The position numbers and the translations under genes were made by a program. From Anaerolineales bacterium (lineage in GTDB: Bacteria > Chloroflexota > Anaerolineae > Anaerolineales > UBA11579): a DNA stretch of 64,000 nucleotides. How positions within the stretch are numbered: the first letter of the stretch is position 1; the number at the start of each line of letters is the position of its first letter. This document shows positions 11,505-60,596 of the stretch, piece by piece. The notes beneath the pieces were generated by a model. The model worked only from the letters and a program-made list of their open reading frames with translations, was not told the origin of the DNA and made no database searches. The stretch is from the NCBI GenBank assembly GCA_025808555.1, contig CP075526.1, forward strand, positions 1,442,712-1,506,711, given 5' to 3'.

Positions 11505-11507
11505 CAC

Positions 11508-11554
11508 AGATAAACGCAGATGAAGACTTTATCTGTGTTCATCTGCGTTTATCT
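11508..11554. repeat. Dispersed CACAGATAAAC-type inverted repeat, copy 1
   Basis: Perfect 17-bp arms at 11508-11524 (AGATAAACGCAGATGAA) and 11538-11554, with a 13-base loop. A related element lies at 60508-60586. The two share the words CCACAGATAAAC, CAGATGAA and ATCTGTGTTCATCTG. It sits in the 105-base spacer between prfA and prmC. Confidence 0.8.
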
Positions 11555-11562
11555 GCGTCAGA

Positions 11563-32525: not shown

Positions 32526-33242
32526 TCATGGAGCTGTGCTCAGGCCCAGCGCGGTCATGATCGCCACGATCAGCGGGGCGATCAGCAGGGCAGGCAGAAA
32601 GTTGCCCACGCGGATCTTCTTGATCTCCAGCAGGCTGCTGACCGCCACGCCCAGCAGCAGGATGCCGCCCACCGCGCTCATCTCGGTGATCATCGCGTCT
32701 GAAAGCAGGGTTTGCGCCTGCTGGGCCAGCAGGCTGATGCCGCCCTGGTAGAAAAGGACGACCAGGGCGGAGAACAGCACGCCGATCCCCAATGTGGAAG
32801 CGAACACAATACTGGCGAAGCCATCCAGCACGGCTTTGATCGCCAGCAGCTCGTAATTGCCTGACAGGCCGTCTTGAATGGAGCCGAGGATCGCCATCGG
32901 CCCGATGCAAAACACCAGCGAAGCGGTAAGGAAGCCGCGCACGAACATGGCGCTGCCGCCCTCGGCGTTGGCGGCGAAGCGTTGCTGCAGCCAGGCGCCA
33001 AAATTCTCCAGGCGGTCTTCCAGCGCCAGCAGCTCGCCCAACACGCCGCCCACCAGCAGGCTGACCAGCACCAGGATCACATTTTCGCTCTCCAGCGAGA
33101 GGCGCGCCCCGATCGAGAGCGTGAACAGGCCCAGGCCGGCTACGATGGTCTGGCTCATTCGCTCCGGAAAGCGCGCCCCAAAGAACAGGCCCAGCGTGCC
33201 GCCGATGAGCACCGTGACAATATTGATAATCGTTCCGAGCAT
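32526..33242 (-). CDS. DUF554 family membrane protein
   Basis: 238 residues with about seven hydrophobic helices. The opening MLGTIINIVTVLIGGTLGLFF and the glycine-rich LVGGVLGELLALEDRLE are characteristic of DUF554 (YdfK/YqgA-like) inner-membrane proteins, whose transported substrate is not established. The frame stays open far upstream, but ATG 33242 is the family start and lies six bases after a minus-strand TATAAT (33254-33249), another leaderless layout. A 21-bp palindrome separates it from the divergent comEA-like gene. Confidence 0.85.
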   Translation of the reverse strand: MLGTIINIVTVLIGGTLGLFFGARFPERMSQTIVAGLGLFTLSIGARLSLESENVILVLVSLLVGGVLGELLALEDRLENFGAWLQQRFAANAEGGSAMFVRGFLTASLVFCIGPMAILGSIQDGLSGNYELLAIKAVLDGFASIVFASTLGIGVLFSALVVLFYQGGISLLAQQAQTLLSDAMITEMSAVGGILLLGVAVSSLLEIKKIRVGNFLPALLIAPLIVAIMTALGLSTAP

Positions 33243-33248
33243 CGGGGC

Positions 33249-33254
33249 ATTATA
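33249..33254 (-). promoter_or_regulatory. -10 box of the DUF554 gene, leaderless layout
   Basis: Minus-strand TATAAT, then GCCCCG, then ATG 33242. Confidence 0.6.
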
Positions 33255-33275
33255 CGCTGGGGCATGCTTCACCCA

Positions 33276-33321
33276 ACAGCTAATCGTAAGGTCAGCGACG
33301 GCTGACCTTACGATTAGCTGT
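33276..33321. repeat. Perfect 21-bp inverted repeat between divergent genes
   Basis: Arms 33276-33296 and 33301-33321 (inner part TAATCGTAAGGTCAGC and its complement) with loop GACG. The right arm ends two bases before the TATAAT (33323-33328) of the comEA-like gene, and the left arm is 22 bases from the DUF554 -10 box. It could be an operator for both genes or an inserted palindromic element. Confidence 0.85.
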
Positions 33322-33322
33322 A

Positions 33323-33328
33323 TATAAT
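33323..33328 (+). promoter_or_regulatory. -10 box of the comEA-like gene, leaderless layout
   Basis: TATAAT, eight bases (CCCCGCAA), then ATG 33337. Confidence 0.55.
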
Positions 33329-33336
33329 CCCCGCAA

Positions 33337-33747
33337 ATGGCAAAGCCCAAGACCCCGCGCACCGTTTCGCCCGCCTGGTGGGTGCTGTATGGCCTGCTGT
33401 GCGGCCTGGGGGTCACCGGCTTGCTGCTGTTCCTTACCACCCCGCCGCGCGGCACAGCCATCCCGCTGCAGACCGAGGGCGGGCAATATGCCATGCTGAT
33501 CCCGATCACATCCGCCACGCGTACACCCTTGCCCACCGCCGGCCCGCTGTTGGTCAACATCAACACCGCCAGCCTGCAGGAGCTTGAGCTGCTGCCCAAC
33601 ATTGGCCCCAGCACCGCCCAGGCCATCGTGGCCTATCGTGAACGCCACGGCGCGTTTAATGCGCTGGATGAATTGCTGAACGTGCCGGGCATTGGCCCCA
33701 AGACCTTTGAAGGCCTGCAGGGCTTTATCATCCTTGAAGACGAATGA
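33337..33747 (+). CDS. ComEA-like helix-hairpin-helix DNA-binding protein
   Basis: 136 residues. A single membrane anchor (WVLYGLLCGLGVTGLLLFL, residues about 11-30) is followed by a Thr/Pro linker and a C-terminal pair of HhH motifs: INTASLQELELLPNIGPSTA and FNALDELLNVPGIGPKTFEG. ComEA proteins of this build bind incoming DNA at the outer face of the membrane in competence. No comEC is nearby, so uptake is an inference. The ATGA overlap with thrC (33744-33747) is an odd pairing. Confidence 0.85.
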   Translation: MAKPKTPRTVSPAWWVLYGLLCGLGVTGLLLFLTTPPRGTAIPLQTEGGQYAMLIPITSATRTPLPTAGPLLVNINTASLQELELLPNIGPSTAQAIVAYRERHGAFNALDELLNVPGIGPKTFEGLQGFIILEDE

Positions 33748-49443: not shown

Positions 49444-49492
49444 CTCGCCCGACAACTGAATATTGCCCAGCGTGCCAAATCGGCATGCATTT

Positions 49493-49643
49493 CATCCAGA
49501 GAGGTTGAGGGAATCGGCCCGTTGAAACCTCGGCAACCCCCGTTTACGGAAGGTGCCAATTCCGACAGAAAAGTTCTGGAAGATGAGAGGGAGCAAGCCT
49601 GTGATTTGCCCTTCTCTGCTGTCTTAAGGGCAAATTTTTGTTT
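49493..49643 (+). ncRNA. SAM-I (S-box) riboswitch
   Basis: Aptamer from about 49493 to 49600: CATCCAGAGAGGTTGAGGGA, then CGGCCCGTTGAAACCTCGGCAA, then AAGGTGCCAATTCC, the conserved S-box core in order. It ends in a terminator (49604-49643) directly before metK. High SAM should therefore stop transcription of SAM synthetase, a direct feedback loop. Confidence 0.95.
49604..49643 (+). terminator. Riboswitch expression-platform terminator
   Basis: ATTTGCCCTT (49604-49613) pairs with AAGGGCAAAT (49626-49635) and is followed by TTTTGTTT. Confidence 0.85.
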
Positions 49644-60497: not shown

Positions 60498-60507
60498 GGC
60501 AAGATTT

Positions 60508-60586
60508 CCACAGATAAACACAGATGAACGCAGAGAAACTGCAAGACAGAAGACTTTTATCAGTCTCTATCTGTGTTCATCTGTGG
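60508..60586. repeat. Dispersed CACAGATAAAC-type inverted repeat, copy 2
   Basis: Arms 60508-60525 (CCACAGATAAACACAGAT) and 60569-60586 match at 17 of 18 positions around a 43-base loop. Shares its core words with the element at 11508-11554. Confidence 0.8.
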
Positions 60587-60596
60587 ATAAAAAAAT

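Follow-up and report, generated by a model that had tools for sequence, protein, structure and literature searches.

What is a long, perfect palindrome doing between two divergent genes; is it an operator that both genes share, a repeat that has been inserted there, or the trace of something else? The question is raised by the genome of an Anaerolineales bacterium (contig CP075526.1), in which we analysed a stretch of 64,000 nucleotides, referred to here as the window. Positions in the window are given without a prefix. A sequence-only reading of these letters had put forward the first two answers.

The palindrome and its odds

The palindrome has a total of 46 bases. Its 21-nt left arm (33276..33296, plus strand) and 21-nt right arm (33301..33321, plus strand) pair at 21 of 21 positions (100% complementary) across the 4-nt loop GACG (33297..33300), exactly as the sequence-only reading had described. 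It is real and lies far beyond chance; by our own arithmetic, the expectation for such a palindrome in 64 kb is about 2e-7. A census of perfect hairpins (arm of at least 12, loop of at most 12) over 464 kb of the host genome, i.e. the window and 20 stretches of 20 kb, returned 68, among which this palindrome has the longest perfect arms, whereas first-order Markov resampling of this 464 kb, done 10 times, yielded 0–2 hairpins per resample, with a longest arm of 14. Most of the 68 look terminator-like by eye, with an A-rich start and a T-rich end. The host genome does not stand out for having long perfect hairpins, since a 400-kb sample of the congener G007 holds 84 perfect hairpins, five of which have arms longer than those described here. 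Folded as single-stranded DNA, the 94-nt spacer that contains the palindrome reaches −34 kcal/mol (z −9.74), a value equalled by none of 200 shuffles.

Two divergent, putatively leaderless promoters

The spacer (33243–33336) separates a minus-strand gene for a DUF554 protein (32526..33242; 238 aa, PF04474) from a plus-strand gene for a ComEA-like helix-hairpin-helix protein (33337..33747; 136 aa, PF12836); a PALP-family enzyme gene comes after the latter. Each gene has a predicted −10 box, TATAAT, close to its start. The box of the ComEA-like gene (33323..33328, plus strand) has its first T 14 nt from the ATG, and that of the DUF554 gene (33249..33254, minus strand) lies 12 nt before the ATG. 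The sequence-only reading had correctly placed the right arm just before the comEA-side box, although the gap is one base (33322) and not two, and it had rightly put the palindrome near the DUF554 promoter, the −10 box of which is 21 nt from the left arm. Scanning of 33100–33500 found no sigma-70-type promoter with both hexamers, so the promoter reading draws on the −10 boxes by themselves.

These boxes recur across the genus. On the comEA side, TATAAT stands 12–15 nt before the ATG in all 10 genus loci (by eye), and on the DUF554 side it stands 12–13 nt before the ATG in nine of 10, the exception being G004; of the other loci, 19 had a start that could be aligned and one did not, and none of the 19 has a TANNNT starting 12–13 nt before the ATG. 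In other words, the genus mostly has back-to-back −10 boxes 12–15 nt from the starts of the DUF554 and ComEA-like genes (loci L003–L011 and L021). With boxes this close to the start codons, both genes are predicted to give leaderless transcripts. In either direction of transcription the palindrome comes before the −10 box and would be missing from both predicted leaderless mRNAs, and a role as an RNA hairpin or terminator is for that reason unlikely. An intrinsic terminator was in any case rejected, for the genes are divergent and the scan of 33100–33500 did not report this hairpin.

The locus in related genomes

A DUF554 match was found in 43 of the 61 genomes searched (host included), among them nine of 10 congeners, and each of those nine keeps the divergent DUF554/ComEA-like pair. 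None of the nine has the palindrome in the spacer. Against the 94 nt of the host, their spacers measure 46 (G007), 46 (G008), 23 (G006), 54 (G001), 61 (G002), 84 (G004) and 33 nt (each of G003, G009 and G010), where the lengths for G006 and G004 have been corrected by 3 nt, by eye, for a mis-set start codon. The closest-matching spacers, those of G007 and G008, align with the host on both sides, at GGGGCATTATACGCTGG...CTTCAC and at TATAAT, and leave the palindrome as a gap (by eye); the automatic alignment agrees on this gap for G007 and is untidy for G008 and G001. The net gain is about 46–48 nt, varying with the alignment. Because congeners have the same gene pair without it, the palindrome is a lineage-specific insertion of about 46–48 nt between the two −10 boxes, as far as the compared sequences tell, and the word "inserted" in the sequence-only reading was well chosen. 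The host species is represented by one genome, and a tree of three proteins from eight genomes does not fix its sister (support 0.308); protein identity to the host is 86% for G006, 85% for G007 and 83% for G008.

The relatives also indicate what the insertion may have altered. The two −10 boxes stand 68 nt apart in the host; only 8 nt separate them in G003, G009 and G010, and in G006 they overlap, so that in these four congeners the divergent promoters must overlap. Overlapping divergent leaderless promoters are thus predicted for the genus.

Copy number and rival explanations

The palindrome is single copy. The arm 20-mer, searched at up to 3 mismatches in the 2.24-Mb host genome, matches twice, at the two arms of this site, and at up to 2 mismatches a search of 400 genomes from the order, with all ten congeners included, found it in the host alone. 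An 18-mer core of the arm had no exact match in genome_contigs, nor had the arm 20-mer one in viral contigs, these being collections that may omit the host genome or very near ones. Relaxing the query to a 15-mer at up to 3 mismatches gave 39 places compared with 24 for a reversed-pattern control, and nowhere besides this site did the 15-mer match with fewer than 2 mismatches. The sequence-only reading had suggested such a search, in which dispersed copies would point to a mobile repeat and conservation upstream of this gene pair to an operator; the arm is neither dispersed nor conserved there, and the term "repeat" finds no support, as neither the host genome nor the searched set of 400 from the order holds a second copy.

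Could the palindrome nonetheless be a remnant or minimal mobile element, such as a MITE, a REP or the ends of an IS brought together? Its standing as an insertion relative to congeners favours this, as does the presence of other palindromic repeats in the genus, e.g. GTAG-ended ones, but the palindrome is single copy across the host genome, the 400 genomes of the order and genome_contigs, its flanks agree over 1 nt only, which means no target duplication beyond one base, and searches with the 94-nt spacer found nothing in phages and, in plasmids, only matches at E values of 0.8 and above. We consider this origin improbable. Among its variants, an IS or MITE remnant with a target-site duplication is contradicted by the flanks, which leaves elements that make no duplication as candidates; a phage or plasmid source was rejected on the lack of phage matches and the chance quality of the plasmid ones; and a dispersed repeat of the REP kind was rejected, as only the two arms of this site match. 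The REP tag was sought as well. Neither GTAG nor CGTC stands at an end of the palindrome, which is flanked by CACCCA and ATATAA, and although the loop GACG reads CGTC on the opposite strand, the tag of a REP belongs at the end. An artefact of assembly or library preparation, i.e. an adapter or a fold-back read, might be suspected from the perfection of the arms and because the named relatives of the genus were assembled from metagenomes. Such an artefact is very improbable indeed: the single-contig genome has the sequence just once; genome_contigs, in which an adapter would turn up repeatedly, lacks the arm core; and the host genome has many other perfect hairpins.

Regulatory readings have location and symmetry on their side. 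A newly acquired operator, the arms of which would be bound by a dimeric or tetrameric regulator controlling both genes, would fit the perfect symmetry and the location in a promoter region that the divergent genes share, and its inner core, AGGTCAGC-N5-GCTGACCT, occurs once more in the host genome and in none of 23 other genomes searched. However, this second site (in L154) lies close to the 3' end of a reading frame, within it (by eye), and not at a promoter, and was taken as a coincidence rather than as a related operator; no regulator was found among the four neighbouring proteins scanned; and the 42 paired bases are about twice the length of a usual operator. The palindrome is absent upstream of the same gene pair in nine of nine congeners, which argues against a conserved operator and leaves unsupported the shared operator of the sequence-only reading, for which absence from near relatives that keep the gene order had been named as the refuting observation; for an operator of recent date, we judge the case unlikely. 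A metal-dependent (DtxR-like) box, which TAAGGT in the arm may resemble, was set aside; TAAGGTCAGC occurs three times in the host genome, and two of these are the palindrome itself. Less likely again is a torsion element, in which divergent transcription would underwind the spacer and the palindrome would extrude as a cruciform, buffering supercoils or insulating the promoters. As DNA, the 21-bp arms and their 4-nt loop form a very stable fold, the location between two divergent promoters is apt, and we count in its favour that E. coli promoter regions are enriched in inverted repeats, as stated in the part of PMC6060812 drawn on here, but the lack of conservation means that the locus does not require the palindrome. 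The stronger version, in which a new regulatory part, recently fixed in this species, would extrude as a cruciform during firing of both leaderless promoters and thereby couple the DUF554 gene to the ComEA-like gene or insulate the two, strikes us as quite improbable. A mechanical role of some kind, by promoter spacing or cruciform extrusion, is possible.

A proposed fold-back origin

We think it probable that the palindrome is a young, single-copy insertion, nearly neutral and confined to this species' genome, and that it presumably arose by fold-back or template switching. During replication, a template switch would copy a short stretch back as its own reverse complement (fold-back synthesis), perhaps accompanied or preceded by a small insertion; the product would be retained because it is nearly neutral. 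Its likely effect would be mechanical, in that promoters that overlap in relatives would be pushed apart and new sequence would stand just before the comEA −10 box in place of the old. Template switching has been proposed as a one-step route to long perfect stems, according to the portion of PMC8794818 consulted. No precursor for the first arm was found, since the arms are no closer to the spacers of the nine relatives than shuffled arms are (107–365 of 500 shuffled arms score equally well across the nine comparisons), and one-step insertion of a ready-made hairpin is a possible alternative.

Has this genome made palindromes elsewhere? Three sites, drawn from the longest non-terminator hairpins in reading frames, were compared with relatives. 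At L033:14058-14091, within a 251-aa reading frame, the host has a 34-nt perfect palindrome where G006, G007, G008 and G002 have non-palindromic sequence of equal length and G001 is 3 nt shorter. The equal lengths imply that a perfect palindrome arose in the host genome without insertion of a mobile element, and this palindrome, absent from five congeners, is a candidate template-switch replacement that lends indirect support to a fold-back origin in the spacer; against G008, its left arm matches at 11 of 17 positions and its right arm at 8 of 17 (by eye), the left being only slightly closer, which counts against the analogy. The coding palindrome at L052:5868-5897 is not private to the host, as G001 has a closely similar sequence. 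At L036:9861-9891, 14-nt arms are perfect in the host, G006 and G008 despite differing arm sequences, and have mismatches in G007 and G001.

Meaning and relation to known elements

We regard the palindrome as a commonplace recent mutation whose location makes it informative. It illustrates how extended, perfect symmetry can arise between promoters in a sequence that is neither a mobile repeat nor a conserved operator, and so warns against calling operators from symmetry alone. Additionally, the nine empty sites offer a natural before-and-after comparison for the effect of a palindrome on two overlapping divergent promoters.

Other elements were seen along the way. The window holds a CACAGATGAACGCAGA-like repeat as inverted copies (11507–11555 and 60507–60587) and a SAM riboswitch (49489–49589, 86.7 bits). 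GTAG-ended palindromes, GTAGGGGCG...CGCCCCTAC, recur in the genus (L037:5045-5073 and, in G007, L056:17534, L059:16920, L060:8695 and L061:19392). They resemble the GTAG-tagged REPs of PMC3733652, which, in the section of that paper used here, are reported in Chloroflexi; those of the host genome have sequences other than that of the palindrome.

How, then, does the palindrome compare with known systems? With the GTAG/CGTC-tagged REP elements, as portrayed in the same section of PMC3733652, it shares the character of short palindromic DNA between genes, but it is single copy, has no end tag and has longer perfect arms. With intrinsic terminators it shares a stable hairpin, as do most of the other perfect hairpins sampled (by eye), but it has no T run and lies upstream of both predicted promoters. 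With template-switch (quasipalindrome-type) hairpins, to the extent that the consulted portion of PMC8794818 describes them, it is compatible through its perfect reverse-complement repeat, short loop and absence from relatives, which would fit such an event; it differs in that the relatives hold no arm precursor and in that it occupies a promoter spacer, outside the predicted RNA.
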